From the NCBI RefSeq assembly GCF_010671565.1, contig NZ_JAABOQ010000004.1, positions 124,001-188,000 of the forward strand: a DNA stretch of 64,000 nt. The letters are read 5' to 3'. This document shows, piece after piece, positions 5,034 to 25,022 of the stretch (the stretch's first letter is position 1; every line of letters starts with the position of its first letter). The DNA comes from Spongiivirga citrea (GTDB lineage: Bacteria > Bacteroidota > Bacteroidia > Flavobacteriales > Flavobacteriaceae). A program made the position numbers and the translations under genes. The notes under the pieces were generated by a model. The model was not told the DNA's origin. It ran no database searches and saw nothing but the letters and a program-made list of their open reading frames with translations.

Positions 5034-5161
5034 CAATGGCTATAAGTAATTGCTTGTTCTTGCCTACTTCTGAAAATCCTCACGGATTTTCAGTTTTGCG
5101 TGTACTTGCTAAGTTTAATACTAAACCACGCAACTACTCATAGCCGAAAGCGTTGGCGGTA
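5025..5161 (+). repeat. attC-like site 3
   Basis: R'' AGCTGCTAAC (5025-5034) contains the stop codon of the DUF998 gene. L arms GGCTATAAGTAATTGC and GCAACTACTCATAGCC differ only at positions 7 and 12. R' is GTTGGCGGTA (5152-5161). The core before GTT is GC rather than CC. Confidence 0.8.
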
Positions 5162-5202
5162 ATGTAAAACCAACCTCAAATTAAAAAGTGAAAACTGAAT
5201 TT

Positions 5203-7143
5203 ATGAACAAAAAAATAAGCTCGTTTATCGATTCAGTTATCGAACAAAAAAAACTACAATTTTCAAAAGCTGAAAGTGATTTTGACAAGTTGTTATTTGA
5301 AAGAAATATTCTTAAATCAGAAAATGATAAAATATCAATAATTGATTATCACTTAATTTCCTCACCGTTTCTTGACAAATATATTGAAAAACTTGACTTT
5401 ATAATTGGTAAAGATTTTCAAGAAAATGCTGATTTTATAAATAAGGTTAAGGAAGATTTCTTATCTAATGGCTACGTTCACGACTACCACATATTGGAAA
5501 AAGAAATTTGGAAATTAGTTACAAAAGAATCTAATTCTAAATTTAACTGTTCTTTCAATGATTACCTCAATTCTGTAGATTTAGACAACAAAATTGAAGG
5601 ATTATTCAGTTTCATTGATGCATATTCAAAATTGTTACCTGAATTAAACTTAACAGATGAAATAATATTTGATAATGCACTTATCCTAACAGAAATAACT
5701 AAAAGTGATGCACAATATAATATTCCATTAGGTAATGTCCTAAATGGCATTAAGAATAAGTGTAAATCCGACTATGATTTAGGTTTAGAATTATTAAGAA
5801 AATCGATTTCCTTAAATGAGGAGAAAGAAAATATAATATCTGCAATCGTCTCTGGGCTCTATGAAAACAAAAAATATGAATTCTATGATTCAATCTTAAA
5901 AGATTTAATTCAAAAGGGAGACAAACTAAATGCTTTTTTCTTTGGACTATCAAATGTCTCTGATATAGAAATTACCGAATGTGATTTATATAAAGAAATT
6001 ATAAAGAAATATATCAAAGAGGATTCTTTAGTAATATCAATACTATCACTTGTATTTTCAATTCTAAAATCCAATAATTCAAAATATCACAAATTCTGTT
6101 TTAAAGAATTGGATTCAGCTATCGAAAATGAAAAAACGGCTTACTACATTTTAAATAATTTAGACCACCTAAACAATTACAATCAAGAAAAAACTGATAT
6201 TATAGTTAAATTAATAAATCAAGATTACTTTTCTATTGAAAACTATATAAACCCAATCAGCAATGTCTTTTGGCACTTAAAAAAATTTGAATCATTCAAA
6301 AAGGTTGTATTAACTATTATTGAAAGGAAACCTTTTGAAAATTTTATAAAAAGCTTTCAGTCCTATTTGCATTCGGTTGATAAAATTGAATTAGACAAAT
6401 TCACAATAGAACTTTTGACAGGCAACCAAGCAAGCAAAAGAAACATTGGTATTGACATATTTAACTATCTATCAAGTCACAGTCCTTATCAATTTGAATT
6501 TAACATTTTAGATTTATCTCATATTTTACAATATAAATTATGGGTTTCTTTAACTCAAGATTTTCACGAACCAAAAAATAGACTTGTTGCTTTACTTCCA
6601 TTATTTGATTCAAAAAGTGATTTGATACGAGAGAGTTTCATCTGTAAGTTAGAGGAGATATCAGAAGATTACGGAGGACACATTACTAAAATAATAGAAA
6701 GTAACTTTGACAAAAAGAATCCAAATTATTTACCTGTAATTGAAAGAATTAAAAATTACATTGAAAATTATTACGCTAAGAATATTGATTTAAAAAATTC
6801 CGTTTCTGAATTGAATCCATATCATACTCATTATAAATTCATAAAGGCATTTGACGAATCTTTCTCTAAAAATATGAGTAAATCTGTAGATAAAGGTGCT
6901 AGAGAAAATAGTCTTCTTTCAATATTAGGCACAAAGACTGTACAACTATCTAAAGGTGGTGGTTGGCGTTTTGGTGCAAAGAAAGAAATTTCACAACTTG
7001 GTAAGGTCGGAACTAGTTTCACAATGCCTAGAGGTTATTTTATTAATCCGAATAAATTTGAACTTGAAAAAGGTTTTGTAATTAGACAAGACTGGACTGA
7101 TGAAGAATTTTCAGGAATTAAAACTACTCTTGAAAATGAATAG
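5203..7143 (+). CDS. Large helical protein, partner of a nuclease (possible defence gene A)
   Basis: About 646 residues from the ATG at 5203; an in-frame GTG at 5188 would add five. I do not recognise a named domain. The protein looks mostly alpha-helical and repeat-like, rich in Leu, Ile, Lys and Asn, with a glycine-rich C-terminal stretch (LSKGGGWRFG) followed by a conserved-looking tail. It overlaps the nuclease gene downstream by 8 bases, so the two are translationally coupled. Large helical protein plus PD-(D/E)XK protein is a layout seen in several anti-phage systems; the role here is inference only. Confidence 0.75.
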   Translation: MNKKISSFIDSVIEQKKLQFSKAESDFDKLLFERNILKSENDKISIIDYHLISSPFLDKYIEKLDFIIGKDFQENADFINKVKEDFLSNGYVHDYHILEKEIWKLVTKESNSKFNCSFNDYLNSVDLDNKIEGLFSFIDAYSKLLPELNLTDEIIFDNALILTEITKSDAQYNIPLGNVLNGIKNKCKSDYDLGLELLRKSISLNEEKENIISAIVSGLYENKKYEFYDSILKDLIQKGDKLNAFFFGLSNVSDIEITECDLYKEIIKKYIKEDSLVISILSLVFSILKSNNSKYHKFCFKELDSAIENEKTAYYILNNLDHLNNYNQEKTDIIVKLINQDYFSIENYINPISNVFWHLKKFESFKKVVLTIIERKPFENFIKSFQSYLHSVDKIELDKFTIELLTGNQASKRNIGIDIFNYLSSHSPYQFEFNILDLSHILQYKLWVSLTQDFHEPKNRLVALLPLFDSKSDLIRESFICKLEEISEDYGGHITKIIESNFDKKNPNYLPVIERIKNYIENYYAKNIDLKNSVSELNPYHTHYKFIKAFDESFSKNMSKSVDKGARENSLLSILGTKTVQLSKGGGWRFGAKKEISQLGKVGTSFTMPRGYFINPNKFELEKGFVIRQDWTDEEFSGIKTTLENE

Positions 7144-8848
7144 CAACAGCATAATAGTCCGAGAATATCTTGCTTCATTAAAAGAAGATTCAGAATTAGA
7201 TTATTTATTTCCGATTCTTTTAAGTCTTATGGGATTTAGAATTGTACAAACAGCAAAAGAATCAAAAGGTCAGTCGCAATATGGTAAAGATATTATTGCT
7301 GTCGGAAAAGATGAAAACGGTATCAAGCATAAATGGTATTTTGAATTAAAAGGTTATTCAGATAAGGACATAACTCAAGCTAACTACTCAAAACCAGACG
7401 GAATAAGAGAATCAATTATAGAAGCAAAAGATACATTTTTCAAAGATTCAACCATTCCAGGCTTTAATGAACTACCTACAAAAATTGTAGTTGTCCATAA
7501 TGGTGTTTTAAAAACTAATATCAGAGATACTTTTGAAGGTTTTATATCTAGAGAATTCAAAGAAGGTGAGTTCGAGCGTTGGGATATTTACTATTTGACA
7601 GATATTTTTAGCAAATATCTTTTTAATGAATACTTACTATCAGATGATATTAGCAATAGATTATTAAAAAAGACATTAGCCTTTTTAGATTCGCCAGACA
7701 ATGAATATTTAGAATTTAAAGAATTAGTTACTATTCAATTCAACAAAGTCGAAAACATTAAAAGCAGAGCCTTTAAAAAACTTTTTGCGACATTAAATCT
7801 ATTAAACTCAATAATATTTCATTATAGTAAAGAAAACAACTATTTAGTACCGGCAAAGGAGTGCTCTAAGTTTTTAGTTCTAAAAACTTGGCATTGGATT
7901 TTAGGAAATAATCTACAAAATAAAAAATCTGTTGTCAAAGAGTTTAAGAAGTTACTTAAAGGGCAGTTCGAAATATTTGATAAATATTTTCAGAAAACGT
8001 TTCCAATTGCAAGAACTGAAAATGGATTGTTTTCTGAATATGGTGCTTTTTATGAAAAAATCGGATATCCATTAAGATGCTTTGAGTACTTAGATGACAT
8101 AATTTATTACTGCCGTTTAAGAAATGTCGTTTACAGTTCTAAAAATATAGAACGGATTAAAAACAAACAAAAGGACTTAATTATTGAAATAATAGAGAAT
8201 AATAGTGGTTTTAGCCGTCCTTTGTTTGATAACCACTCAATACCAATAATCCAATTGTTTTTGTTTTTTTCTGACAAAACCTGTTTAAGACAAAAAGATG
8301 TTGAGTTTTTATTTAGCTTTTTCCAACTTACAATACAGAATCTTAAAATTGAAAAAATAAGACATAATAGGCAACCTGAATTACACAATAATATTGACCT
8401 AATAATTGAATGTTTTGCCACAGGAAATAAACCAGAAGAATACTGTGACAGTTCTTCTATCTTAATTGCTATCCTACTCGAAATTTGTCTAATATTCGAT
8501 AATGAGAGCCTGTTTAAAGAAATCCTATCATTTATTGATGACGATTTAAGTTTGCAGATAGTTTCTATTGATTCTAATAAATTTAATGTTGAACAACTAC
8601 TGTTTGAAAAAAACTTACATAACGAATATTACGTTGACTGTATAGAAAGAGTTGATAATGGGCTAAAGCTCTTAAAAAATGAAGCTGATTTTAAAGAATT
8701 CAAAAAATCTGTATTAGAAAAAAAAGAAACACCAAATCAGTATGAAACAGATAATCTAGGTCTCTCCTGTATAAGGTATTTAGCTCATAGCTATTTTAAA
8801 AATGAAATTTTACCTGAGGAATGGAGGGAATTAATAGAAGAGAAATAA
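7136..8848 (+). CDS. PD-(D/E)XK nuclease-domain protein (possible defence gene B)
   Basis: 570 residues from the ATG at 7136, which overlaps the end of the upstream gene; a longer start at 7100 is possible but overlaps more. Residues 20-110 form a restriction-endonuclease-like domain: GFRIVQTAKESKGQSQYGKD ends with D52, and FELK provides E70 and K72, the usual D...ExK metal site of the Mrr/PD-(D/E)XK fold. The rest is a long helical region with no recognised domain. With its partner it fills one cassette whose ends are perfectly complementary over 10 bases, so both genes move as a unit. Confidence 0.8.
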   Translation: MNSNSIIVREYLASLKEDSELDYLFPILLSLMGFRIVQTAKESKGQSQYGKDIIAVGKDENGIKHKWYFELKGYSDKDITQANYSKPDGIRESIIEAKDTFFKDSTIPGFNELPTKIVVVHNGVLKTNIRDTFEGFISREFKEGEFERWDIYYLTDIFSKYLFNEYLLSDDISNRLLKKTLAFLDSPDNEYLEFKELVTIQFNKVENIKSRAFKKLFATLNLLNSIIFHYSKENNYLVPAKECSKFLVLKTWHWILGNNLQNKKSVVKEFKKLLKGQFEIFDKYFQKTFPIARTENGLFSEYGAFYEKIGYPLRCFEYLDDIIYYCRLRNVVYSSKNIERIKNKQKDLIIEIIENNSGFSRPLFDNHSIPIIQLFLFFSDKTCLRQKDVEFLFSFFQLTIQNLKIEKIRHNRQPELHNNIDLIIECFATGNKPEEYCDSSSILIAILLEICLIFDNESLFKEILSFIDDDLSLQIVSIDSNKFNVEQLLFEKNLHNEYYVDCIERVDNGLKLLKNEADFKEFKKSVLEKKETPNQYETDNLGLSCIRYLAHSYFKNEILPEEWRELIEEK

Positions 8849-8853
8849 AACAC

Positions 8854-8990
8854 TACCGCCAACAACGTATATAAAAAATAGCGGTTTAATCGCTTAATCG
8901 AAAGAAAATGAATAAATTAAAGGTCATTTACAATCCGAAAAGTTAGTGCATAAAATCCGCTACTTTTCATATACAAAACCGTTAGGCACA
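8854..8990 (+). repeat. attC-like site 4
   Basis: R'' TACCGCCAAC (8854-8863) is the exact complement of site 3 R'. L arms are 8867-8884 and 8957-8974 (18 bases each), differing only by A.C at positions 7 and 12. R' is GTTAGGCACA (8981-8990). Confidence 0.9.
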
Positions 8991-9005
8991 ATTAGAATAA
9001 ATGCT

Positions 9006-9641
9006 ATGAGAATTAGATATTGCTGGAGATGTGAAATGGATGTTCCAATGTTGGAAGGTGAAGAAAGTACTATCGCTTCACGACTCTACGCGGAAGGGTT
9101 TAAGATACCTGAAAAAGACAGACAAAAGCGATTTAAAAAATTACTTGATTATTACAATGATTTAACCGGGTTTGGGGAAACGGAGCCCAATGCAATCGTT
9201 CACCATATTGCCGATATTTATGGCCCTGACTGTGAAAATTGCGGAAAACCATACAGGACCCACAAAGCAAAATTTTGCGCCGCTTGTGGAAATAAAAGGG
9301 AAATGAAAAAACTCTTTTTAGATGATGTTCGGACAATTGATATGATTTATGACAAATCTATGGAATCCGAGTTTGACATTGTTCGGACTTTTGACGAATT
9401 TGTTGCCTACATCAATAAAAATGGACTTCCGAATTATATAAGTTTTGACAATGACCTTGGACTTGGAGAAGACGGAAAGATAGCTCCTGATGGTTTGGCT
9501 GCTGCAAAATGGTTGGTTTATGAATCTGGGCTTGATTTAAAAGATTTGGAATTTTATGTGCATTCTGCCAATCCTGTTGCTGCAGAACAAATAAAAGGGC
9601 TGTTGACAAATTATATAAAACACTTAAAAGCAACGGAATAA
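9006..9641 (+). CDS. Zinc-ribbon protein fused to a receiver-like (cyclic-phosphate processing) domain
   Basis: 211 residues from the ATG at 9006; the open frame continues upstream, but that part lies in the recombination site. The N-terminal part has cysteine pairs C6/C9, C76/C79 and C91/C94, which look like split zinc ribbons. From M100 the sequence KKLFLDDVRT, then FDNDLGLGEDG and a closing HSANPVAAEQ, matches the divergent receiver-like family linked to cyclic-phosphate/RNA repair systems. Stand-alone members of that family usually start at such a Met, so this is a fusion. The target is unknown. Confidence 0.75.
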   Translation: MRIRYCWRCEMDVPMLEGEESTIASRLYAEGFKIPEKDRQKRFKKLLDYYNDLTGFGETEPNAIVHHIADIYGPDCENCGKPYRTHKAKFCAACGNKREMKKLFLDDVRTIDMIYDKSMESEFDIVRTFDEFVAYINKNGLPNYISFDNDLGLGEDGKIAPDGLAAAKWLVYESGLDLKDLEFYVHSANPVAAEQIKGLLTNYIKHLKATE

Positions 9642-9647
9642 AAAAAC

Positions 9648-9786
9648 TGTGCCTAACAACGTGTATAGTTCATTGCTTCGGATTTTCCCTTCGGAAAATC
9701 ACTCGCAAAAGAACTATCGCAAGTTTTATTTATTAAATTAGTCGCTAAACCTAACGCAACGCACCATACACAAACCGTTGTGCGCA
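9648..9786 (+). repeat. attC-like site 5
   Basis: R'' TGTGCCTAAC (9648-9657) is the exact complement of site 4 R'. L'' is GTGTATAGTTCATTGC; the right arm is GCAACGCACCATACAC. R' is GTTGTGCGCA (9777-9786). Confidence 0.9.
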
Positions 9787-9814
9787 AAATTGAGCTAGAA
9801 CGATAAAACGACTA

Positions 9815-10678
9815 ATGATCTCAGAACTCAACGAAAATAAGATTATTCAGATAAGAGTTCATCTCAAGATTATTTTAGAGGAAGGGTTTAAAATAATCGA
9901 AGAGAATAATGATAAATTCAACGTTTATCAAAGCCTTTATAAAAGATATATTTATTGTTTTGATTCCTTAAGCCTTTTACTTAAAGAATTTGGAGATGAT
10001 AAAATTTATAGAACCAATTCAATAGCAATAATTTTAAGAGCAAGTCTACTTGATTATCTAACAACAATCTATTTGAGGACTTTTCAATTGGAGATGAAGG
10101 CTGGATTAAAATCCAATTATACTGAGGAGCTAAAAAAACTGCTTTCAGAACAAATTCGACGTTTTTTAATTGTTCGTGAGGCAGATAGAAAAACGCCCAG
10201 ATACGATCATGAAAGTTTTTGCAGCATGGTGAATAAGATCTATTTGGAGTTTGATTTTTTATTTGACAAATCAGTTCCACTTGATTACAATAAACCTATT
10301 AAATCCTTAAAATATAGTAGACAGGATGATATCAGTTCTCAAACTATAAGAAAACGATTGGATAGTTTTTCTGAGAATCTTAAAAATATCGATTACCATC
10401 ATGTATTTGAGCTCTACGACATTTTTTCAAAATATGACCATTTTGGAATTATCTCAATGTTTCTAGAGGAATTGGAGATAAATGAAGTCTGCGACTATAT
10501 CTTTTGGTCTATCTTTCATATTGTTGATGGAATTACATTTTGTGAAGAGCTATTGAAAGATGAGGTAAATAGTAAGTCAAATTTTGAAAAAATTGGTTAT
10601 GAACTGTCCTCCTTAAAAGGAACAATTTATACAGAATCTCTGTATTTAAGCGAGCAGTATAAATCTGAAAATAAATAA
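9815..10678 (+). CDS. Hypothetical cassette protein, helical
   Basis: A 287-residue protein that I do not recognise. It appears soluble and almost entirely alpha-helical, with no signal peptide or membrane segment and many acidic and aromatic residues. ATG start 28 bases after R'; the stop lies 4 bases before R''. The cassette is single-gene, and its ends match perfectly over 10 bases, with pairing continuing past a wobble at position 11. Confidence 0.8.
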   Translation: MISELNENKIIQIRVHLKIILEEGFKIIEENNDKFNVYQSLYKRYIYCFDSLSLLLKEFGDDKIYRTNSIAIILRASLLDYLTTIYLRTFQLEMKAGLKSNYTEELKKLLSEQIRRFLIVREADRKTPRYDHESFCSMVNKIYLEFDFLFDKSVPLDYNKPIKSLKYSRQDDISSQTIRKRLDSFSENLKNIDYHHVFELYDIFSKYDHFGIISMFLEELEINEVCDYIFWSIFHIVDGITFCEELLKDEVNSKSNFEKIGYELSSLKGTIYTESLYLSEQYKSENK

Positions 10679-10682
10679 ATTC

Positions 10683-10967
10683 TGCGCACAACACCGTATA
10701 AAAGCAATAAGGCGGATTGACATTTTAACCAACATTCTAGAAATAGCACACCATTTTAAGTTTTTATAATCTGCACTGTTTTCTAGCCGAAAAACAACAG
10801 CCGGTCACGCAGCCGAATGGCTAAATGGTGTCCTATTTTTAAACATCGAAGTCCGCAAGCACTTTAATTTTTTTCGCCCACGCAAAAAATCAAAAAACTT
10901 GCTCAGTAATTTTTAGTAAATTTCCGCTAGAAAGCCTTACTGCTTTTATACAAGACCGTTGGCACTA
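10683..10967 (+). repeat. attC-like site 6 (long form)
   Basis: R'' TGCGCACAAC (10683-10692) is the exact complement of site 5 R'. L arms 10696-10713 (GTATAAAAGCAATAAGGC) and 10934-10951 pair at 17 of 18 bases; the exception is A.C. About 220 bases of variable sequence lie between them. R' is GTTGGCACTA (10958-10967). Confidence 0.9.
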
Positions 10968-10976
10968 ATACCAAAA

Positions 10977-11453
10977 ATGAACCATTTCGACCTGATACTG
11001 GAATTCAAAGAAGTTATTCGGGACAGAATATTTATCACAACCGCAACAGACCAACTTGAAACAGAAATTGAATCCAATTGTTGGTCATTAAGTTTGTCCA
11101 AAGAACAAGCTGGATTTGTTTCCACCCATGAGTTTGCTGCATTGTTGGACTTGATCAAACAAAACCGAACCGAACAACTCAATAATTCAGATTACGATGT
11201 AAATCTGATTTTTTACCTATGGTTTGACGAACAAGCTGGGCAAATCAGGTTCAATCTTATCAATGAAAATCATTCGAAATTACCTTTTACTTCTAAGGTG
11301 GAGTTTGCTGAAAATCAAAAGATCATTATATCTGATTTCCTAGAATCAGAATACCTGAATGGAATACCTTTTTCAGAACTAGACGAAAAGAATCTGACCA
11401 TCGACAGGGAAAATATAACAAAGGTCTATAAAGAATTATTGGTCAAAGAATAA
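10977..11453 (+). CDS. Hypothetical cassette protein
   Basis: 158 residues from the ATG at 10977. A TTG at 10959 would start translation inside the R' core and is not preferred. The protein looks soluble and acidic with mixed alpha/beta character and no recognised domain; the segment VNLIFYLWFDEQAGQIRFNL looks like paired beta strands. It is the only gene of its cassette, whose ends match over 10 bases. Confidence 0.75.
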   Translation: MNHFDLILEFKEVIRDRIFITTATDQLETEIESNCWSLSLSKEQAGFVSTHEFAALLDLIKQNRTEQLNNSDYDVNLIFYLWFDEQAGQIRFNLINENHSKLPFTSKVEFAENQKIIISDFLESEYLNGIPFSELDEKNLTIDRENITKVYKELLVKE

Positions 11454-11459
11454 GGTACG

Positions 11460-11593
11460 TAGTGCCAACAACGTGTATAGTTCATTGCGTCTGATTTTCC
11501 TTTCGGAAAATCCTCGCTGCTAAACAAAGGGTTGTCGTCTTTTTGCTATCTTAGGTCTCACGCAACGAAACCATACACAAACACGTTACCCAC
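11460..11593 (+). repeat. attC-like site 7
   Basis: R'' TAGTGCCAAC (11460-11469) is the exact complement of site 6 R'. The right L arm (11561-11578) has one extra base relative to the left arm (11473-11489), plus two A.C positions. R' is GTTACCCAC (11585-11593), preceded by CAC instead of CC. Confidence 0.9.
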
Positions 11594-11667
11594 AAGCTTA
11601 AAATCAACCTCACATTTTAGCACTTTCGTTTTTTTTAGACATACAAATCTAATGTTTGAAAAATATA

Positions 11668-11708
11668 TATTTAAGTATTTGCTTAAATAATAAATAATTG
11701 TAATTTTG
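11668..11708 (+). promoter_or_regulatory. Promoter and ArsR-type operator of the mercury operon
   Basis: TTTG at 11678-11681 and TAATTTTG at 11701-11708 are 19 bases apart, fitting the Bacteroidota -33/-7 promoter. An inverted repeat TATTTAAG (11668-11675) / CTTAAATA (11682-11689) spans the -33 element, where a repressor would block polymerase. The -7 box is only 4 bases from the ATG, so the transcript may be almost leaderless. Confidence 0.65.
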
Positions 11709-11712
11709 TTTT

Positions 11713-12087
11713 ATGGAAAATAATTCTTGCATAAGACAAAAAGCCGATATTGAACAAATAATTCGTTGCAAAGACACCGTTTCGAAATTAAACGAATCCT
11801 TCGATTATCTAGCGAATGGACTTTCATTGGTCGGAAATAGCGTTCGACTTAAAATCCTCTACCTAATCTTCGAGGAAAAAAGACTCTGCGTTTGTGATTT
11901 AAGTGATATTCTTGGAATGAATATTTCTGCTATTTCTCAACATTTAAGGAAAATGAAAGACCGAAATCTTTTAAAGACCGATAGAGAAGCACAAACAATT
12001 TTTTACTCACTTACAATTGAATATGAAATCCTATTAAAACCATTTTTTGAAATACTTGATAAAAACAAAATTTTAGAAACAGTATGA
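11713..12087 (+). CDS. ArsR/SmtB-family metal-responsive repressor
   Basis: A 124-residue winged-helix protein. The segment RLKILYLIFEEKRLCVCDLS carries the Cys-Val-Cys pair often used for metal binding in ArsR-type sensors, and NISAISQHLRKMKDRNLL is the DNA-recognition helix, followed by the wing ending IFYSL. It precedes a MerT-MerP gene with which it overlaps by 4 bases (ATGA), and an inverted repeat overlaps its own promoter, so it likely represses this operon until Hg(II) or a similar ion binds. Confidence 0.9.
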   Translation: MENNSCIRQKADIEQIIRCKDTVSKLNESFDYLANGLSLVGNSVRLKILYLIFEEKRLCVCDLSDILGMNISAISQHLRKMKDRNLLKTDREAQTIFYSLTIEYEILLKPFFEILDKNKILETV

Positions 12088-12889: not shown

Positions 12890-12929
12890 AAAGCCAGTGT
12901 TGAAAACCAAACTGAACGAAAATAAGCCA

Positions 12930-16996: not shown

Positions 16997-17005
16997 ATTT
17001 CAAAA

Positions 17006-17868: not shown

Positions 17869-18705
17869 TTATTCAACTTGAATTTCGCCCATAGCCATCT
17901 GATTACATCTTAATAAAATATCCTGTAATTCAAAACCATCAGATTTTAATGGGTCGATAGCTTTGACCAAATTGGTTCTCAATTTATATAATTCTTCTCG
18001 ATTATACTTTTTGGACTTTTTGACCAATTGCAATTTTGAAATTGCTTCTTGTTGGTCTTGTTTTGGATTGAACCAACCGTTCAGTTCTGAACATTGGTTA
18101 CAAGCACCATTTTTATTGACCAATGCACAACGATTATCAAAAATATCGGTCATTGAACCTCGTGCATTTTGTAAAAGATACTTGACAGTTCCTTCGCTTT
18201 TTTCGATTATCAAACAAATATCGTTTACCGAAAAATCATAAATATCTTTAAGTATCAAGGCTATTTGATTTTCAATTTGCAAATTTTTGGAAATGCAGGT
18301 AAAACAAGTATCAATATGTTCTTTGATTTCATATTTCCCATACTCGGAAGTCTGTGCCACTTTTACAATTCTGCCCGCTAAATCAGCATTACTCTGAACC
18401 AAATTCTTTGCTTGTTCAGAAACATCTGGAACCCATCTTTTTCTACGTTTCAAATAATTATAAGCAATGCTTGTAGCTATTTGAAAAACCCAAGTTTTTA
18501 ATGATGCTTCACCTTTAAAAGTTTTCAGTTTATCGTAAGCCTTTATAAAAGTATCGTGGGTAATATCTTCTGCATCATTTCTATTTGCTAATAAACGATA
18601 TAGATATGATTTGAGTTGCGATTGGAATTCCGCAAACAGAGATTGAAATGCGTTGATGTTTCCATTCAACGCATCCAATAACAAATCTTCATTAGATTTT
18701 TTCAT
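17869..18705 (-). CDS. RNA polymerase sigma factor, ECF-like, with C-terminal extension
   Basis: A 278-residue protein. Residues about 10-85 match sigma region 2 (the DAEDITHDTFIKAYDKL segment contacts core polymerase and the -10 DNA). A region 4-like helix-turn-helix with the pattern VNDICLIIEKSEGTVK follows near 165-185. Between them lies an ExxxHxxxCxxC element (KEHIDTCFTCIS, about 127-138) like a zinc-binding anti-sigma motif, and the C-terminus has another CNQC. It is last in a three-gene minus-strand operon. Confidence 0.85.
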   Translation of the reverse strand: MKKSNEDLLLDALNGNINAFQSLFAEFQSQLKSYLYRLLANRNDAEDITHDTFIKAYDKLKTFKGEASLKTWVFQIATSIAYNYLKRRKRWVPDVSEQAKNLVQSNADLAGRIVKVAQTSEYGKYEIKEHIDTCFTCISKNLQIENQIALILKDIYDFSVNDICLIIEKSEGTVKYLLQNARGSMTDIFDNRCALVNKNGACNQCSELNGWFNPKQDQQEAISKLQLVKKSKKYNREELYKLRTNLVKAIDPLKSDGFELQDILLRCNQMAMGEIQVE

Positions 18706-18717
18706 CTTCTAATATTA

Positions 18718-19305
18718 TTAAATTTTAACAACTGCTGGTGTTAATGATTTAGGTCTTTTATCCTCGCTACACATATCATTATCTGGTGGTCTAACACCAA
18801 AATACAATTTTCCATCGGCATCCAATTTCAATAAATCGTGGTCTTCCGAGCATTCTGCTACTGATTTCCATAGTGAACAACCACTTTGGGAAATATCCTT
18901 TTCCACGTCTTTGGTCAAATCACAACTTGAAAAGCCAAAACCTTGAATTACATCTGGAATATTGGTTTTTAAGGTAACGAATTTTTTATCCTCAATGAAT
19001 AGTGCATTATATGCATCGTTAACGAATTTAGATTTATCCAAAACAGAATACGTTCCAACTGTTCTAAAAATAAAAATTTGACTTTTCATTTGTGGGTCAA
19101 AAGCCAGCGTAAACTTTAGTGACCATTTACCATTCTCAAAGGTAAATTCACGCTTGCCAAATGTTCCTTGTCCCCAATCGACACCCTGTTGGTCAACATA
19201 AGTGCCTTTTAGATTTTCTAAGGCCTTTTTATCTTCACTTTTTGAATTCTGCGCACACGCTACGCTAAAGATTGCTAATGTGCAAATTAAGATTATTCGT
19301 TTCAT
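18718..19305 (-). CDS. Hypothetical lipoprotein
   Basis: A 195-residue protein with a lipobox near FSVACAQ (Cys17). The mature part resembles a small lipocalin-like beta barrel (GTYVDQQGVDW, then FTFENGKWSLKFTLAF), but I cannot assign a family. It lies 12 bases upstream of the sigma gene and 6 bases downstream of the oxidoreductase gene on the same strand. Confidence 0.75.
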   Translation of the reverse strand: MKRIILICTLAIFSVACAQNSKSEDKKALENLKGTYVDQQGVDWGQGTFGKREFTFENGKWSLKFTLAFDPQMKSQIFIFRTVGTYSVLDKSKFVNDAYNALFIEDKKFVTLKTNIPDVIQGFGFSSCDLTKDVEKDISQSGCSLWKSVAECSEDHDLLKLDADGKLYFGVRPPDNDMCSEDKRPKSLTPAVVKI

Positions 19306-19311
19306 CGTTTT

Positions 19312-20310
19312 TTAGTTATTTGTAGTTAATATTACCTTTCCTATGGTTTTTCTATTTTCGATAGCTTCGTGAGCTTCAGCTGCATCTTCCAAAGCATATT
19401 TATGCGCAATTTCTACCTTCAATTTATCTTGCATTAAAAGTCCAATTACAGTTTCCAATGCTTTCTGCCAGAGTTCCATCCTATTATTAATAAAATATGC
19501 CAAATTGAAACCTGATTGTGTGATGTTCTCATCGACAAAAAATTCAGGATGAATAGTTCCTTGAATACCACTTGCACAACCAAAGACAATAATCTGACCG
19601 CCTTGACTCAAGCTTTTTAAACTTTGATTATACACTTCGCCACCGACCATTTCAAAAACAATATCGACACCTTTGCCTTCTGTAAACTTTTTGACTTCAT
19701 TTGACCATTCAGATTTGGAATAATTGACTATAAAATCAGCACCCAATTTTTTAGAGATTTCCAGCTTTGCATCAGAACTACTTGCGCCTATTACTTTAGC
19801 ACCGTTCAACTTTGCTAGTTGTACCAAAATTGAGCCAACACCACCTGCTGATGCGTTTACAAGAACAGTTTTTCCTTCTAAATCATTGGCGACTTGCGAT
19901 ATCATTAATTGGGCTGTAGTTCCTTGAACGAAAATTGCAGTAGCTTTTTCTGGATTCATTTCTGGTGGTAAGGGAACACAGTATTGGGCAATAGCAGTAA
20001 CGTATTCGGAATATCCACTTGCCTGTGGTAAAATTGCCAATACCGTTGTGCCGACAGCGTAAGGAATAGTTACACCTTCGCCTACTCTGACTATTTCGCC
20101 AACAGCTTCCGTGCCTAAAACAAATGGCAACGGCGTTTCTTGAAAATAAGTGTTCTTTCTACGAAGTATGTCGGAATAATTGACACCAATTGCCTTGACC
20201 TTAACTAAAACTTCCCCAGCGTTTGGGGTTGGGATTTCGGTTTCAACCAATTTTAAAACATCTGGAGAGCCATAATCTTGCATTTGGATTTGTTTCATTT
20301 TGTTTTTCAT
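19312..20310 (-). CDS. Zinc-type alcohol dehydrogenase/quinone oxidoreductase family
   Basis: A 332-residue medium-chain dehydrogenase of the NADPH:quinone oxidoreductase branch. It lacks the catalytic zinc ligands. The N-terminal GroES-like domain contains VKVKAIGVNYSDILRR and the C-terminal Rossmann domain has NASAGGVGSILVQLAKL (the NADPH loop). Probable reaction: NADPH-dependent reduction of quinones or enones. It leads the operon; the start is Met1 or Met5. The cassette is inserted with genes opposite to the rest of the array and so must carry its own promoter. Confidence 0.88.
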   Translation of the reverse strand: MKNKMKQIQMQDYGSPDVLKLVETEIPTPNAGEVLVKVKAIGVNYSDILRRKNTYFQETPLPFVLGTEAVGEIVRVGEGVTIPYAVGTTVLAILPQASGYSEYVTAIAQYCVPLPPEMNPEKATAIFVQGTTAQLMISQVANDLEGKTVLVNASAGGVGSILVQLAKLNGAKVIGASSSDAKLEISKKLGADFIVNYSKSEWSNEVKKFTEGKGVDIVFEMVGGEVYNQSLKSLSQGGQIIVFGCASGIQGTIHPEFFVDENITQSGFNLAYFINNRMELWQKALETVIGLLMQDKLKVEIAHKYALEDAAEAHEAIENRKTIGKVILTTNN

Positions 20311-20639
20311 CTTGAATATAATTTTTTGGTTTATACTCTTTAGACAATCGAACAGACAGAAACGGATGAAAAAACTTCAATAAATTTAGAAACATCAATA
20401 AAATCAACACTTTGCTTGCTATTGCCATTCCACACACTTTTACACCAACGCTAAAGCCAACAAATAAAAGAGTGTTCCATTACATTGAAGAAGAAACATT
20501 TTAGAAGAAAACTTTTGAACGACTTTATAGCTTGTAAGTATAGGTTCAGAAATACGAAAATTGAGCAGGTGAATTACAAAAAAGCAAAGCTAAAAACGAA
20601 TGAAAAAGTATCTATGTCATTGGTTTAGGAAATAAATAC
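20311..20639. other. Leader of the reverse-strand operon
   Basis: About 330 bases between the first minus-strand gene and site 14. They should hold the promoter of that operon, but I could not find a clear TTTG/TAnnTTTG pair. A short minus frame near 20243-20437 overlaps the oxidoreductase start and is not considered a gene. Confidence 0.4.
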
Positions 20640-20777
20640 TGTGTACAACATTGTGTATAATTCATTGCTAGTTAAGGCTTACTTACGAAAATTTCGCTAC
20701 AATTTTCTATCCGTGATTATTTATTAACTTTAGTGCTTAAACACGCAACGAAATCATACACGAGACCGTTGGCTGTA
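20640..20777 (+). repeat. attC-like site 14
   Basis: R'' TGTGTACAAC (20640-20649) is the exact complement of site 13 R', spanning the 2.9 kb reverse cassette. L arms are of the GTGTAT/ATACAC class. R' is GTTGGCTGTA (20768-20777). Confidence 0.9.
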
Positions 20778-20841
20778 ATTGCGAAAGTGTAACCTGGTAA
20801 AGATAATTGTCGTCTTACCTGAAAACTATACTTTTTCAATT

Positions 20842-22284
20842 ATGAATAACACTCTTAAGTTTGCTACAATTGCTCTTTTTCTTTGTATTAACACTTTCGA
20901 AATTGTAGCTCAGGAAAATCATTCCATCCTTGCTAAAAAAATTGATGCCTACCTAAATAAAGGTGTCTCAAACGGGTTTAATGGAGCAGTTCTCATCGAG
21001 AGAAATGGAGAGGTAATATTGAACAAAGGTTATGGTAAGGCAGATAAAGTCAAGAATATTTCAAATACACCAAACACCATATTCGATATTGGATCGAATA
21101 CAAAACAATTCACTGGAGCTGCAATATTAAAACTTGCCGAACTACATAAGTTAAAAGTTACTGATTCTTTACATACTTTCTTTAATAATTTACCTGATGA
21201 CAAAAAAAATATCACAATTCATCAACTACTAACACATACAGGTGGATTTCAAGAATCTTTAGACGGTGATTTTGAGCTGATTTCAACACAAGATTTTTTT
21301 CGCAATGTATTTAATAGTAAGTTATTTCAAGAACCTGGAACTAAATTCAATTATTCTAACTTAGGATATAGCATCTTGGCTAGAATAATTGAAATAACCT
21401 CGAAAATGAATTATGAAAATTTCTTGCAAGAGTTTTTATTTAAACCTTCAGGAATGAACCAAACAGGTTATCTCTTGCCGGAATGGAATGCTGAAAACCT
21501 GGCCAACGGCTATAATAGAAATATACTAGATCAAGGAACAACGATAGAACGCTATAAGGAAGATGGACAAGTGAGCTGGAATCTAAAAGGTAATGGAGGA
21601 ATTAATTCCACTTCAAATGATCTTCTTCTGTGGAAGAAGGCAATAAATTCTAATAAAATATTACCCCAAGAACTGACAGAAAAATGGATTCAACCATACA
21701 CCCTTGAAATCAATCATTACTATGGTTATGGCTGGGGTATTTATAACACTGCTGACAAAATAATTTACCATAATGGAGGAAATGGAGCTTTCACTCATAC
21801 GATCATTTGGAATATGGCAAAGGATTATTTTATCATCTACTCTAGTAATTCAAGCAGTCCGAAGATAGAAAATGTCGCTTACGAAATAGAACAGGCATTA
21901 ACAAATGACTCCTATGTACCCAAAGAAATTGAAAAAAACCCATACTTCTTTGTAATGAGCTTTATAGAACAGCATAATATTAACGATTCTGATAAACTAC
22001 TGAGATTAATAATAGATAAATATAGTGCTGATTTTGGCACTTCTGAGGTGCTAAATAGATTAGGTTATATAACAATGAGATCCGAAAACAATTCGGAATG
22101 GGCCATTAAACTATTCAAGTTTAATACAAGACTATTTGAAAATGAAGCTAATGTTTGGGATTCTCTAGGAGACGGACACTTAGCAATAGGAAATAAAGAA
22201 GAGGCTATTATTAACTTTAAAAAAGCAATCAATTTGGGAAGCGAAGAAACATTGAAGAAACTAAAAAAGCTGCAACAAAATTAA
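20842..22284 (+). CDS. Serine beta-lactamase-like hydrolase with C-terminal TPR
   Basis: 480 residues from the ATG at 20842. A longer TTG start at 20779 would precede the signal peptide and begins inside the site. A signal peptide ends near EIVAQ. The class C beta-lactamase/esterase fold carries the SNTK catalytic motif (Ser nucleophile, Lys), then NYSN and HNGG. A C-terminal TPR-like segment follows (KLFKFNTRLFENEANVWDSL, then a second helix pair). Such proteins are esterases or peptidases and only rarely antibiotic-hydrolysing. A related gene sits at 28473. Confidence 0.88.
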   Translation: MNNTLKFATIALFLCINTFEIVAQENHSILAKKIDAYLNKGVSNGFNGAVLIERNGEVILNKGYGKADKVKNISNTPNTIFDIGSNTKQFTGAAILKLAELHKLKVTDSLHTFFNNLPDDKKNITIHQLLTHTGGFQESLDGDFELISTQDFFRNVFNSKLFQEPGTKFNYSNLGYSILARIIEITSKMNYENFLQEFLFKPSGMNQTGYLLPEWNAENLANGYNRNILDQGTTIERYKEDGQVSWNLKGNGGINSTSNDLLLWKKAINSNKILPQELTEKWIQPYTLEINHYYGYGWGIYNTADKIIYHNGGNGAFTHTIIWNMAKDYFIIYSSNSSSPKIENVAYEIEQALTNDSYVPKEIEKNPYFFVMSFIEQHNINDSDKLLRLIIDKYSADFGTSEVLNRLGYITMRSENNSEWAIKLFKFNTRLFENEANVWDSLGDGHLAIGNKEEAIINFKKAINLGSEETLKKLKKLQQN

Positions 22285-22291
22285 TAGCAAC

Positions 22292-22430
22292 TACAGCCAA
22301 CAACGTATAACAACCATTGCGGCGGATTTTCCTCAGTGGAAAATCCTTGCAAAGCTCAAATCCAAGATTTTTAACTAACTTTCCTATTAAACAATCCGCA
22401 ACGGATTGTTATACAAACCCGTTGTAGGTA
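22292..22430 (+). repeat. attC-like site 15
   Basis: R'' TACAGCCAAC (22292-22301) is the exact complement of site 14 R'. L arms GTATAACAACCATTGCGG and CCGCAACGGATTGTTATAC (one extra base on the right). R' is GTTGTAGGTA (22421-22430). Confidence 0.9.
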
Positions 22431-22439
22431 ATTAACTAG

Positions 22440-23384
22440 ATGAAAATATACCAATTAATATACGATTACAATCGGTCAAATGATTCTGAAAAAGATGCAT
22501 ATCACATTCCATTCGAGCATAGCAATATAGCTTCCTCTATCTTTTTAAATAAAAAACATACTGAAAGATTACCCAAAAAAATTTATTTCAGATCAAATCT
22601 TAATATCATTACTAAAACTGATTTTCCTCTTAACGATTTACGTATACCCATAATGAGTGATAGACTAATTAAGTTAATAAAATCAATTGGAGATATAAAT
22701 CTAAAAGAAATTCCTGCTATAATGCTCGACGACAAATTTTTAGAAAGTAAATTTGATAGTTCGGGCTCACTAATAAATGAAGTCAAATACGTTGATAATT
22801 ACAAAGCAATAATGCTATTGGATAGAATTGATTGTTTCGATTATGAAAACTCAATTTATGAACCTGGTGAATTGAATCCAAATATCCCGGGTTATATTAG
22901 AAAATTAGTGTTAAACATTTCTGATATAAATCTTCCACCTATATTTAGAATAAAAGAAAGCCCTTCTCGTATATTAATCACGGAAAAAGTAAAAAAATTA
23001 ATTATTGACAAAGACATTAGTGGTTGTTTATTTGAAAATGTGGAAACTAAAAAAGAATTAAAGAACACAAGACAAATAGGAGGAATATTAGGGAAAGAAT
23101 ATTTTGAATTAGGACGCGGCAACAGAAAAGTTTCTGAGAATTATTTACGTCCATATATATTAGGATTTAACATCAATAATAAACAAAAGCCATTTGTTGT
23201 TGCAATGGGTGATAACCACTCTGACACAGTTGCCACGAAACTAAGTATAGCTGAATTGGTATCAGGTAAATGGGACGAACATATTAGACTTTCTAATTCT
23301 GAAAAATTTGTTGAAAGTTTAAAAAAGGCATTGAAAAATAAAGAAGAATTTCCTCAAAAATTTATATTGGAATTGATAAAATAA
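22440..23384 (+). CDS. Immunity-like protein (DUF1629/Imm11 type)
   Basis: A 314-residue soluble protein. FRIKESPSRILITEKVKKLI followed by IDKDISGCLFENV resembles the recurring core of the DUF1629/Imm11 immunity family, which protects against polymorphic toxins; an N-terminal stretch (PIMSDRLIKLIKSI) looks like a repeat of it. No toxin gene is nearby. The cassette ends match over 10 bases, with pairing continuing past a wobble. Confidence 0.65.
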   Translation: MKIYQLIYDYNRSNDSEKDAYHIPFEHSNIASSIFLNKKHTERLPKKIYFRSNLNIITKTDFPLNDLRIPIMSDRLIKLIKSIGDINLKEIPAIMLDDKFLESKFDSSGSLINEVKYVDNYKAIMLLDRIDCFDYENSIYEPGELNPNIPGYIRKLVLNISDINLPPIFRIKESPSRILITEKVKKLIIDKDISGCLFENVETKKELKNTRQIGGILGKEYFELGRGNRKVSENYLRPYILGFNINNKQKPFVVAMGDNHSDTVATKLSIAELVSGKWDEHIRLSNSEKFVESLKKALKNKEEFPQKFILELIK

Positions 23385-23385
23385 C

Positions 23386-23520
23386 TACCTACAACAATGG
23401 CTATAAGTAATTGCTGGTTTTCGCCTACTTCTGAAAATCCTCGCGGATTTTCAGTTTGGTGTACTTGCAAGGTTAAGTGCTAACCCACGCAACTACTCAT
23501 AGCCGAGACCGTTACCTACA
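23386..23520 (+). repeat. attC-like site 16
   Basis: R'' TACCTACAAC (23386-23395) is the exact complement of site 15 R'. L arms GGCTATAAGTAATTGC and GCAACTACTCATAGCC, the same as site 3. R' is GTTACCTACA (23511-23520). Confidence 0.9.
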
Positions 23521-23532
23521 ATTTGAAAAAAA

Positions 23533-24018
23533 ATGACGCAAGATTTGAATTACTGGCTTTGTAACAAAGGAACTACTTGTGATAGTGATGATTTTGAAGA
23601 TGGAAGTAGTGTCGAATTTATAAAAGAGGTTAGTTTAATAAAATTAAAAGACGGTAGATACCAAATATCTGAATTTGGAACTTTCAGAAACATTCTTGAC
23701 GGATTTGGATATTCATTAATTGACAATGAAATAGCTGAAGTTCTCAAAAAATATGTTTTTGACCAAATTGAATTGAATCCAATAGTCATTTTCAGACGTG
23801 CAACCGATGAAGAATGGACAAACTATTCCGAATTGAAAATGAGAAACCAAATAGAATTTAAAGATTACTATAAAACGGAATCAATTGGTCTTAAAATTTA
23901 TGGAATATTAAACGGACTTATTTATGTGTCGGCTGAATTGAAAAGTATAATCGAAAAAGAATTAACCGATTTAACTGATATCGAATTTAAAAGAGGATTG
24001 CCTCTTATGGCAGGATAA
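23533..24018 (+). CDS. Hypothetical, possibly immunity-like protein
   Basis: A 161-residue acidic protein with no recognised domain. Its C-terminal segment (FKRGLPLMAG after a helix) and its size fit small immunity-type proteins, but this is only an impression. It follows the Imm11-like cassette and might belong to the same kind of orphan immunity store. It is the sole gene of its cassette. Confidence 0.7.
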   Translation: MTQDLNYWLCNKGTTCDSDDFEDGSSVEFIKEVSLIKLKDGRYQISEFGTFRNILDGFGYSLIDNEIAEVLKKYVFDQIELNPIVIFRRATDEEWTNYSELKMRNQIEFKDYYKTESIGLKIYGILNGLIYVSAELKSIIEKELTDLTDIEFKRGLPLMAG

Positions 24019-24022
24019 AAAC

Positions 24023-24267
24023 TGTAGGTGACAACGCATATAATTTATAGCTCACTCAAGCTGAATCCAAGTCTCCCCTATTTTATATAACTTAGTCTTT
24101 CGGAATTAACCGAACATGCGGCTCTGCCATAGCTTCTGATTCGCACGCCTTTTGGTCCCTTCGAGAACCTCAGGGTCCAAAACGCTTCCGGCTCGCCCAC
24201 GCGACCCTCTTGCCGAATCACACAGCCGCCAGACCGCTGCAAATCATATACGAAACCGTTGTACTGC
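24023..24267 (+). repeat. attC-like site 17 (GC-rich interior)
   Basis: R'' TGTAGGTGAC (24023-24032) pairs with site 16 R' at 9 of 10 bases. The interior (24110-24240) is much richer in G+C than its surroundings and holds its own stem: TTTTGGTCCC and GGGTCCAAAA pair at 9 of 10. R' is GTTGTACTGC (24258-24267). Confidence 0.85.
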
Positions 24268-24356
24268 ATTAAAGAAAACGTTTATTTCAAAAACCAAGTG
24301 GGTTTCAATAAAATGAGACACAATAGTCTAATAAAAATCATAACTTTCAATTAAGT

Positions 24357-24797
24357 ATGGACTTATCAGAATTTCCAATGCCAAAAGAAGGCTTTGTCGT
24401 AACCCAATTCTTAACAGTAAAAGATGCAATTAAATCCGCTAACTATTATGCTCAGGTTTTTGGTGGTAAAGTACTACATGAAGGACATCCATCATTTGTA
24501 AAACTTGCAAACACATGGTTAATATTGAATGAAGGTGGGGGGCCTACAGTAGATAAACCAGACTATTCTCTAGAAGCTCCTACACCAGAATCGCGTACTT
24601 TTCGCAGTTTTCTTAACATCCGCGTGGCGGATATTAAAGAATGTTATGAAGAATGGCAAAAAAGGGGTGCTAAGTTCCTAACCCCACCACAAGATATGGG
24701 TGCAGAATGGCGTAGCTATATTAAAGATCCTGACGGCTATATCATAGAGGTAGGACAAGCGAAACTGGATATGCCGAAATCATTGTCCAACAACTAA
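24357..24797 (+). CDS. VOC (glyoxalase/PhnB-like) family protein
   Basis: A 146-residue protein with vicinal oxygen chelate modules: VVTQFLTVKDAIKSANYYAQ opens and YIKDPDGYIIEVGQAK closes, the latter with the metal-ligand-type Glu. Likely a dioxygenase- or lyase-like enzyme of unknown substrate. It stands alone in its cassette, about 90 bases after R'. Confidence 0.85.
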   Translation: MDLSEFPMPKEGFVVTQFLTVKDAIKSANYYAQVFGGKVLHEGHPSFVKLANTWLILNEGGGPTVDKPDYSLEAPTPESRTFRSFLNIRVADIKECYEEWQKRGAKFLTPPQDMGAEWRSYIKDPDGYIIEVGQAKLDMPKSLSNN

Positions 24798-24801
24798 AAA
24801 C

Positions 24802-25022
24802 GCAGTACAACAACGTATAACGCCAATAAGTTTTGGACAGTCAATAAAAATTCTAGAAAATAGAGCGCTCAGCAAGTTTGCGGTTCGGTTCGCGCACTAT
24901 TTCTGTCAACGGAAGAGCCAAGCACTTTGCTTCTCATGGCAAAGAGCTTGTTTTGCGCTTTTTTACTACATTTATCAATGCCGGATGAAACTTACTGGCG
25001 TTATACAAACCCGTTGGGCTTC
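24802..25022 (+). repeat. attC-like site 18
   Basis: R'' GCAGTACAAC (24802-24811) is the exact complement of site 17 R'. L arms GTATAACGCCAATAAG and CTTACTGGCGTTATAC pair except for one A.C. R' is GTTGGGCTTC (25013-25022). Confidence 0.88.

Follow-up and report, generated by a model that had tools for sequence, protein, structure and literature searches.

Introduction

The closest described systems are the sedentary chromosomal integrons, in which tandem cassettes carry hairpin attC sites of the form R''-L''-L'-R' with AAC/GTT boxes, the bottom strand is favoured, and a cassette's own R' and R'' are complementary. Integron cassette ends self-pair over 9-11 nt in most cassettes (PMC2727003). 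A passage of PMC12901181 gives GTTRRRY as the R box consensus, and one of PMC5371416 says that, within arrays, R'' and the 4 variable bp of R' are "not necessarily" complementary. Partridge 2000, according to a passage of PMC12901181, proposed that the Delta-attI cassettes of class 1 integrons originate when the R'' of attC crosses over with the L box of attI1. One excerpt of PMC4792948 describes the attP of CTX phage as a folded hairpin without extrahelical bases, served by a recombinase without I2, and states a paradox: did attC sites or the I2 domain come first? One section of a complete-genome survey (PMC9024848) lists a single complete integron for Bacteroidetes proper (Salinibacter ruber), besides Chlorobi and Ignavibacteriae, and leaves integrase-less attC clusters in Bacteroidetes uncounted.

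Here we analyze an array from Spongiivirga citrea that lies in a 64,000-nucleotide stretch of DNA, hereafter the window. Like sedentary chromosomal integrons, it combines tandem cassettes and foldable bottom-strand attC sites with an adjoining tyrosine recombinase and self-complementary ends. Unlike them, the flavobacterial arrays have an integrase without the IntI-specific insertion (I2) and with ~100 residues ahead of its first recognised domain, an integrase gene co-oriented with the array, few extrahelical bases (bulges) on the L'' side, and cassette ends that mostly depart from GTTRRRY. Archaeal Xer/XerA proteins provide the closest solved folds of a homologue from Mesonia, and differ in lacking the extra N-terminal region and the adjoining attC-like array. 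The Delta-attI cassettes resemble the present arrays in the crossover proposed at R''; there a cassette trades its attC for a piece of attI, whereas in the flavobacterial arrays whole attC bodies are common to cassettes. CTX phage attP has neither a cassette array nor an integrase of its own.

Results

Cassette ends match within units

The array comprises 29 listed cassettes; the first begins upstream of the window, at position -856 according to L007, and the last ends at 35652 (Table 1). The original prediction held that fifteen consecutive cassettes have fifteen different starts, each complementary to its own end, perfectly in thirteen and with one mismatch in two. Inspection of cassettes 4-18 (5152-24811) bears this out, with 13 of 15 perfect over 9-10 nt. 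Matching was scored at positions 4-10, which leaves the shared GTT uncounted. Own pairs agree at 6.80 of 7 positions versus a mean of 2.83 for re-paired ends, and the true sum is attained in 0 of 20,000 permutations. The own end scores best for all fifteen starts and uniquely best for fourteen. The pairing joins the ends of one unit and not of one site, as had been proposed: within a single attC site, R'' matches R' at only 2.21 of 7 positions.

Table 1. Coordinates of cassettes and attC sites in the window; each attC site runs from AAC of R'' to GTT of R'.
Feature	Positions	Strand	Remarks
Cassette 1	1..3632	+	starts at -197 (read from L007); key GTTGTAAGTA, self-match over 10 nt; type I methyltransferase and specificity domains
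attC site 1	3630..3818	+	
Cassette 2	3816..4295	+	key GTTAGCAG, 8 nt self-match
attC site 2	4293..4416	+	
Cassette 3	4414..5034	+	exception: start GTTGTATGCA, end GTTAGCAGC; match is GTT only
attC site 3	5032..5154	+	
Cassette 4	5152..8863	+	key GTTGGCGGTA; two genes match Olokun OloA and OloB
attC site 4	8861..8983	+	
Cassette 5	8981..9657	+	key GTTAGGCACA
Cassette 6	9777..10692	+	key GTTGTGCGCA
Cassette 7	10958..11469	+	key GTTGGCACTA; alone among the fifteen in lacking A/G at position 11
Cassette 8	11585..12938	+	key GTTACCCAC; gene and key also in two other genera, attC bodies differ
attC site 8	12936..13057	+	body unlike those of its two homologues
Cassette 9	13055..13705	+	key GTTAGGCAA
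attC site 9	13703..13827	+	surrounding 138 nt 90% identical to stretch around 26453-26577
Cassette 10	13825..14934	+	key GTTGTAGCCA
Cassette 11	14989..15549	+	key GTTGTAAATA
Cassette 12	15669..16826	+	one mismatch, position 7; OmpA-family protein
Cassette 13	16987..17564	+	key GTTAGGGTAC
Cassette 14	17684..20649	+	key GTTGTACACA; three larger ORFs on minus strand
Cassette 15	20768..22301	+	key GTTGGCTGTA; protein of Pfam PF00144 (Beta-lactamase)
Cassette 16	22421..23395	+	key GTTGTAGGTA
Cassette 17	23511..24032	+	one mismatch, position 3
Cassette 18	24258..24811	+	key GTTGTACTGC
Distal array part	25013..35652	+	ten cassettes, ends mostly mismatched

Upstream of the fifteen, cassette 0 matches its own end over 9 nt, and when cassettes 0-18 are taken as one set, again 0 of 20,000 permutations reach the true pairing. 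The ten distal cassettes match at 3.70 of 7 positions versus a permutation mean of 2.17 (5 of 20,000 reach). That is to say, cassettes 4-18 are a clean stretch, cassette 3 fails and the distal ten mostly fail. The distal part also holds, at 25834, an attC left half without a right half. Among relatives, 13 loci have at least five cassettes; one (L048) does not rise above permutations (680 of 5000 reach the true pairing), and the excess is weak in L045 (91 of 5000) and L052 (86 of 5000).

Two candidate accounts of failing ends were rejected. A general ageing clock, with self-match falling with distance, gave no significant rank correlation in seven arrays of at least 20 cassettes. Fusion of cassettes behind the mismatches fared no better, with 10 of 59 failing starts matching another end within three cassettes and a background of 70 of 343.

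The comparisons establish, at the level of sequence, that a key of about 10 nt, made up of GTT and 7 variable nt, stands at the start of a cassette and its inverse at the end, and that it belongs to one unit. Of 142 self-matched cassettes, 54 have a purine at position 5, so most keys depart from the GTTRRRY consensus.

Predicted folding favours the circle and the bottom strand

When crossover cuts R' at G|TT, a cassette begins with its own R' and finishes with its own R'', and the two therefore form one attC only in the circle. Folding of 143 self-matched cassettes predicts a bottom-strand R stem of 13.7 of 16 pairs (mean) in circle form versus 4.6 of 16 in array form, and favours the circle over the array form in 139 and the bottom over the top strand in 142. 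The circle hairpin is predicted to be about 7 kcal/mol more stable than its array-form counterpart. These models support the earlier expectation that a circle joined next to the G of GTT would pair its own R' and R''; such circles presumably occur in the strain.

In 11 of the fifteen cassettes 4-18, bottom-strand pairing runs on beyond the key through a G.T wobble at position 11 and then 2-5 pairs. Position statistics were restricted to cassettes with at least 6 of 7 own matches (343 of 419, from 29 loci). At position 11 the start reads A in all 343, and the combination A/G occurs in 287, with 50 more carrying one bulged nucleotide, which gives 337 of 343 a G.T wobble directly after the key. 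R-stem mismatches at positions 4-10 are G.T on the bottom strand in 44 instances and on the top strand in 0 (343 cassettes). Changes in one copy of the key go with changes in the other, the two copies can pair in the bottom strand, and the G.T wobble at position 11 is conserved.

Across 155 sites, the L arms contain 414 bottom-type versus 22 top-type wobbles; we use this count because the method applied to 324 sites scores bottom-type wobbles above top-type ones. An L''-side bulge is present in 18 of 414 sites, in 3 of 27 hand-picked window sites and, by another method, in 19 of 324 sites, versus 7 of 8 in a canonical array. Compensatory changes were found in 13 of 16 attC body pairs, and Rfam gave no match at the gathering threshold. 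L''-side extrahelical bases are confined to few sites, and the asymmetry comes, as judged from predicted pairing, from G.T wobbles.

An integrase without the IntI-specific insertion

The integrase matches Pfam Phage_integrase, and R232, K257, H321, R324, H347 and Y356 are invariant in 24 aligned relatives; we take these residues to be the catalytic set R-K-H-R-H-Y. The IntI-specific insertion (patch or I2) is missing: the flanking aligned blocks are separated by 19 positions in the family profile (274-292) versus 62 residues in IntI4 (182-243). TIGR02249 matches in two pieces, skipping profile positions 181-238. Its cut-off is exceeded in none of the 149 family genomes; the positive control was the phylum set, in which 57 of 198 genomes exceed it. 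The best NCBIfam model is NF040815, at 210.2 bits (cut-off 220). A fold search with residues 94-367 of a model of the Mesonia homologue (L060) returned 4a8e (Z 22.2) and 5hxy (Z 20.0), with IntI4 (2a3v) at Z 18.7. The integrase is thus classed here as XerA-like and without the IntI-specific insertion.

The genome holds two other recombinase matches, C9 and C13, labelled XerC/D-like from their tree position. The tree unites the window integrase with 13 close relatives (100/99) to the exclusion of both, unlike what would be expected of a chromosome-dimer XerC/XerD. This tree was built from 40 selected rows, among them five canonical IntI of a single phylum; it does not order IntI relative to the flavobacterial group and fits either a loss of I2 or its original absence. 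A putative attI, ATATAAC[CAG]A|GTT, lies 25-42 nt past the integrase stop codon at 8 of 18 loci listed, with variants in 2 more; 14 further loci gave no line in this search.

Distribution of integrase and sites

At least one attC-like site was detected in 132 of 149 Flavobacteriaceae genomes and at least three in 118; site model R1 was built from rows of 17 of these 149, which match by construction. The window's own sites served to train the detector, which demands an ungapped start of the L arms. It misses some sites: in the window it merges neighbours and yields 21 cassettes versus the 29 listed. Cut-offs were 28 for adjoining-site counts, 30 for folding and the 419-cassette set, and 33 for one other run. 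A generic attC detector was discarded for its excess of false sites at loose settings.

The integrase (E <= 1e-40) occurs in 98 of 132 site-positive versus 3 of 17 site-negative genomes, and 34 site-positive genomes gave no match at that threshold. At 16 of 20 integrase loci the gene is co-oriented with at least three adjoining sites; the other four have fewer than three, and the detector found no site at Mesonia L060. Sites of the same model also occur in 19 of 57 phylum genomes with canonical IntI, so the site type is not limited to I2-less enzymes. Ten canonical IntI loci of the phylum showed no adjoining array with the detectors used, and a plasmid integron was therefore taken as the canonical yardstick. 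Separate observations are site matches in 11 of 19 relatives of G184 and nine phage records with canonical IntI.

Keys are separable from attC bodies

Clustering of attC bodies gives 36 families covering 230 of 323 unique cassettes, the largest with 30 members, 24 keys and 10 genomes. Conversely, one gene and one key occur with different bodies in six pairs, representing four independent cases. Within the window, the near-copy of attC site 9 at 26453-26577 is preceded by a different R''. The body-sharing sets were pre-selected (570 pairs with keys at most 3/7 alike, 626 pairs at most 4/7), and the low key identity in them is partly due to this choice of unlike keys; one further comparison was free of that choice. 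Counts of pairs with shared bodies are non-independent. Genes evidently keep their keys, and the body from AAC to GTT is common to unlike keys and evidently replaced as a block. Separability of keys from bodies is absent from the literature searched, as are the XerA-like integrase without the IntI-specific insertion, the wide occurrence of attC-like sites in the family and the wobble asymmetry.

Discussion

We consider it likely, from sequence and modelling, that the locus is an integron-type array with private keys, a hairpin favoured in the circle, an I2-less integrase and bodies that are swapped separately. The adjacent XerA-like integrase would recombine two partners: R' on the circle's folded bottom strand, cut at G|TT, and the putative attI just past the integrase stop codon. 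Insertion would break the perfect R stem, and circles may therefore insert well and inserted cassettes be held more firmly. A relaxed integrase would also cross over at R'' (AA|C), which would swap bodies; this crossover and a looser choice of strand could follow from the missing I2 and the mostly missing L''-side extrahelical bases. The broader form of the proposal is tentative, and we place it a little below an even chance: a class of integrons common in Flavobacteriaceae that works without I2 and mostly without L'' extrahelical bases, in which strand choice resides in G.T wobbles, the private key makes only the circle fold perfectly, and the body is a mobile module swapped at R'' and R'.

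Alternatively, repeated attC bodies might be exchanged through gene conversion or homologous recombination. Within an array the bodies are direct repeats, RecA-type crossing over close to their left edge would likewise leave the key with its gene, and five mosaic body pairs exist, all from genome G078. Against this route, pairs alike at one edge share both halves (at least 0.93) in 453 cases and only one half (at least 0.95 versus at most 0.65) in 5, counts that are non-independent and omit intermediate cases. Identity drops to background directly beyond GTT at the right edge, which was free of selection, and bodies replaced on one gene are only 0.40-0.61 identical, which offers little homology. 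We regard exchange by homology as rather doubtful.

A plainer account is that the attC of a circle must fold and that R-box diversity reflects drift and compensation. It accounts for the end matching as first noted, which is already known for integrons because self-pairing over 9-11 nt is published for most cassettes (PMC2727003); in the Thiodictyon plasmid yardstick (L184), 4 of 7 cassettes likewise match their own ends at 5-6 of 7 positions. This account is nevertheless improbable as a full explanation, as it does not cover the A/G at position 11, the missing insertion, the rare L'' bulges or the separation of key and body. Equally improbable is that cassettes are made in place: new genes would acquire a resident attC body, and the start key would be copied to the end in a step that might use a hairpin as template. 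The body families spread over many keys and genomes fit such a process, but existing gene-plus-key units are found with unrelated bodies, and templated copying should not preserve a non-identical A/G at position 11.

The host XerCD could recombine the hairpins in place of the adjacent enzyme, as for CTX phage, whose hairpin without extrahelical bases is used with XerCD (Escudero 2016, in an excerpt of PMC4792948), and the genome has the XerC/D-like C9 and C13. The adjoining, co-oriented integrase gene, its distribution shared with the sites and the attI-like motif past it make this very unlikely. Chance or a common consensus has a negligible probability: all cassettes agree in part at GTT, at position 4 (A or G) and at positions 9-12, but the permutation tests rule out chance matching of ends for cassettes 4-18 and for the set 0-18.

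The array appears to be a flavobacterial integron variant in which the enzyme and most sites are without parts thought essential, and in which sites appear to be swapped between units. Separate inheritance of key and body bears on the likeness of attC sites within genomes and on cassette formation, a process that a section of PMC5371416 calls largely unknown, and keys could act as cassette-specific tags to trace gene movement. If I2-less integrases work on sites without L'' extrahelical bases, these bacteria would offer living test material for the attC/I2 paradox, and the class would be a functional form such as this chicken-and-egg question asks for.

Cassette starts pair with their own ends

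In the window and the stretch upstream of it, the array comprises 29 listed cassettes (0-28; see table). We refer to the ~10 nt cassette start (GTT plus seven variable nt), inverted at the end of the same cassette, as the key, and to the attC from AAC to GTT as the body; matches are counted over the seven variable positions. The original prediction held that each start in cassettes 4-18 is complementary to its own end, and inspection of the array bears this out: complementarity is perfect over 9-10 nt in 13 of 15 and contains one mismatch in 2 of 15. With GTT excluded, own pairs match at 6.80 of 7 versus a mean of 2.83 for shuffled pairs, where the true value was met by 0 of 20,000 permutations. 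The pairing also ties together the two ends of one unit and not of one site, as predicted, with R'' and R' of the same site matching at just 2.21 of 7. Cassettes 0 and 1 likewise self-match (9 and 10 nt), cassette 2 does so over 8 nt, cassette 3 does not, and the ten distal cassettes have a mean own match of 3.70 of 7. Cassettes 4-18 are the clean part of the array.

Coordinates of features in the window, its genome and one relative
Feature	Coordinates	Observation
Cassette array	-856 (upstream of window) to ~35.7 kb, contig C12	AAC...GTT hairpin sites
ORF in cassette 1	10-333	107 aa, precedes the 1046-aa protein
Protein in cassette 1	343-3483	1046 aa; carries type I methyltransferase and specificity domains
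Cassettes 4-18	5152-24811	
Genes of cassette 4	5188-8848	Two-gene cassette; both Olokun defence genes matched (OloA E 1.5e-74, OloB E 1.3e-133)
Cassette 8	11585-12938	Key shared with two other genera; bodies differ
attC left half	25834-25903	No right half; aligns to the site at 5032 with 66% identity (70 nt)
Unit holding the lone left half	up to 26456	Apparently a fused or damaged unit
73-base cassette	28226-28298	Between two sites
Three short sites (77-79 nt), distal part	31241-33167	Resemble another attC type; absent from the detector's list
attC-like sites elsewhere in the genome	C15:203270-203392; C11:590825-590949	
Mesonia aestuariivivens, locus L060	10001-11176	Integrase present, resembles an empty integron; no array by detector in the stretch examined around it

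Self-matching of this kind is known biology in a new place, since PMC2727003 describes self-pairing of integron cassette ends over 9-11 nt and PMC5371416 states that within arrays R'' and the variable portion of R' are not always complementary. In the canonical yardstick, the eight-site array of Thiodictyon plasmid pTs485, four cassettes out of seven have an own match of 5-6 of 7, and A/G at position 11 is not regular.

Relatives follow the same rule

Named relatives of the integrase suggest that the host belongs to the Flavobacteriaceae. Up to 20 kb around and downstream of integrase relatives was sampled from 20 other genera of the family, and 16 of these 20 loci carry at least three sites on the integrase gene's strand. 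Neighbouring stretches were added, as were six site-bearing loci out of 80 named loci (including Algibacter onchidii, Winogradskyella ursingii, Seonamhaeicola aphaedonensis and Rufibacter sp.). Across the resulting 419 cassettes in 29 loci, own matches reach at least 6 of 7 in 343, and same-site matches average 1.67 to 5.00 by locus. Among the 13 relatives' loci with at least five cassettes, own keys are not better than permutations in one (L048, 680/5000) and beat them weakly in two (L045, 91/5000; L052, 86/5000). Locus L040 of genome G113 contains several ~310-340-base cassettes whose keys end in TTTA and whose R stem has one additional T.

Predicted pairing favors the bottom strand of the circle

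Position 11 of the start is A in all 343 self-matched cassettes (at least 6 of 7 own matches), and the complement at the end is G in 287, with a further 50 having one bulged nt ahead. This A/G combination forms a G.T pair on the bottom strand and an A.C mismatch on the top; in 11 of 15 of cassettes 4-18, pairing resumes for 2-5 nt past this position. Mismatches within the key of these 343 cassettes comprise 44 bottom-strand G.T pairs versus 0 on the top strand, and L-arm wobbles in 155 sites are bottom-type in 414 instances versus top-type in 22. A consensus hairpin from 55 bottom strands reveals compensatory changes at 13 of 16 pairs, and G.U at two pairs in 43 and 53 of the 55 sequences. Folding predicts that in circle form, where a cassette's own R' and R'' meet, the bottom strand is the stabler of the two strands in 142 of 143 cassettes, and that it is stabler there than in the array form, where R'' meets the neighbor's R', in 139 of 143 (mean difference 7.2 kcal/mol). 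In the best-supported reading, the key serves as the circle's R stem and is under selection to pair when the bottom strand folds. A neighbor's key would break this stem in the array, such that insertion would be favored over excision.

Keys and bodies are inherited apart

The key is kept at both ends, 7 of 7, in all 16 homologous pairs with at least 90% protein identity, 13 of which lie within one genome. Body identity is at most 0.8 in 12 of 34 homologous pairs. Six of these, from four independent cases, have identical keys at both ends and bodies 0.40-0.61 identical, with the switch to unlike sequence beginning past AAC; cassette 8 of the window is among these cases. Keys differ as well in the remaining six of the 12, at 1-6 of 7 positions. 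When pairs are taken without key selection, bodies 0.90-0.95 identical (114 pairs) carry keys matching at 2.54 of 7 versus 2.50 when re-paired, and bodies at least 0.95 identical (42 pairs) carry keys matching at 3.12 versus 2.50. Both body halves are shared in 453 compared unique pairs and one half only in 5, counts that represent non-independent events, and 366 of the 453 have at most 4 of 7 key positions alike. Same-body pairs are 0.83-1.00 identical at body edges and fall to background level in the next cassette. Altogether, 230 of 323 unique cassettes belong to 36 body families, the largest spanning 24 keys and 10 genomes.

If crossover took place at both R'' and R', bodies bounded by AA|C and G|TT would be exchanged. 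The main rival is body exchange by homologous recombination. As to crossover at R'', PMC2727003 reports that inverting the extrahelical bases of a canonical site and supplying the top strand moves recombination there, and PMC12901181, with reference to Partridge 2000, mentions a proposed R'' crossover in class 1 integrons. Lacking the IntI-specific insertion (I2) and acting on sites free of L'' bulges, an enzyme might be less strict and cross at R'' too.

The integrase lacks I2 and most sites lack L'' bulges

The window integrase is 397 aa with catalytic residues present, and alignment shows I2 to be absent, with 19 profile positions where IntI4 has 62 residues. Profile search with TIGR02249 reaches the cut-off in 0 of 149 Flavobacteriaceae genomes and 57 of 198 phylum genomes. 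The predicted model of an integrase homologue (mean pLDDT 80) scores higher against archaeal Xer (Z 22.2, 20.0) than against IntI4 (Z 18.7). A tree built from 40 selected rows groups the window integrase with 13 close relatives (100/99) and places five canonical IntI in a second group (100/100); this tree does not settle the branching order of the two, and enzymes of the six added loci spread over more than one branch. An attI-like motif, ATATAAC[CAG]A|GTT, lies 25-42 nt past the integrase stop in 8 of 18 loci listed, and in several other loci the first detected cassette start is far from the stop.

An L''-side bulge occurs in 7 of 8 canonical sites versus 18 of 414 present sites (3 of 27 hand-picked window sites). 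The two best-tiled arrays have it in 1 of 118, and few sites can have been missed there because 112 of 118 cassettes self-matched. L'-side bulges are common (157 of 414).

Distribution and implications

The site model, built with rows from 17 of the 149 family genomes, matches 132 of the 149 at least once and 118 at least three times, and it matches 69 of 198 phylum genomes at least once. The integrase is found at E <= 1e-40 in 101 family genomes, comprising 98 of 132 site-positive versus 3 of 17 site-negative genomes (Fisher p 9e-6); in the other 34 site-positive genomes the arrays may be orphaned or the enzymes more distant.

Integrons have been reported in the phylum as such (passages of PMC8618304 and PMC2426708), and for Bacteroidetes proper the relevant part of PMC9024848 names one complete integron, in Salinibacter ruber. 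In PMC2426708 a match counted only if the additional domain or patch was present in it, and PMC9668308, with reference to Messier and Roy 2001, treats the IntI-specific domain as necessary and as a defining character. PMC4792948 describes how I2 and extrahelical bases co-evolved as a chicken-egg paradox. No earlier description of this integron class was found in the literature searched, which did not reach preprints and most subscription papers.

Of the 57 phylum genomes that carry a canonical IntI, 19 also have site-model matches, so site type is not neatly divided by enzyme; this slightly lowers our confidence in the following reading, which we hold tentatively, at somewhat less than an even chance. 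That is to say, Flavobacteriaceae may commonly carry an integron class without I2 and mostly without L'' bulges, in which G.T pairs set strand choice, keys are private to each cassette and bodies are mobile modules swapped by R''/R' crossover.
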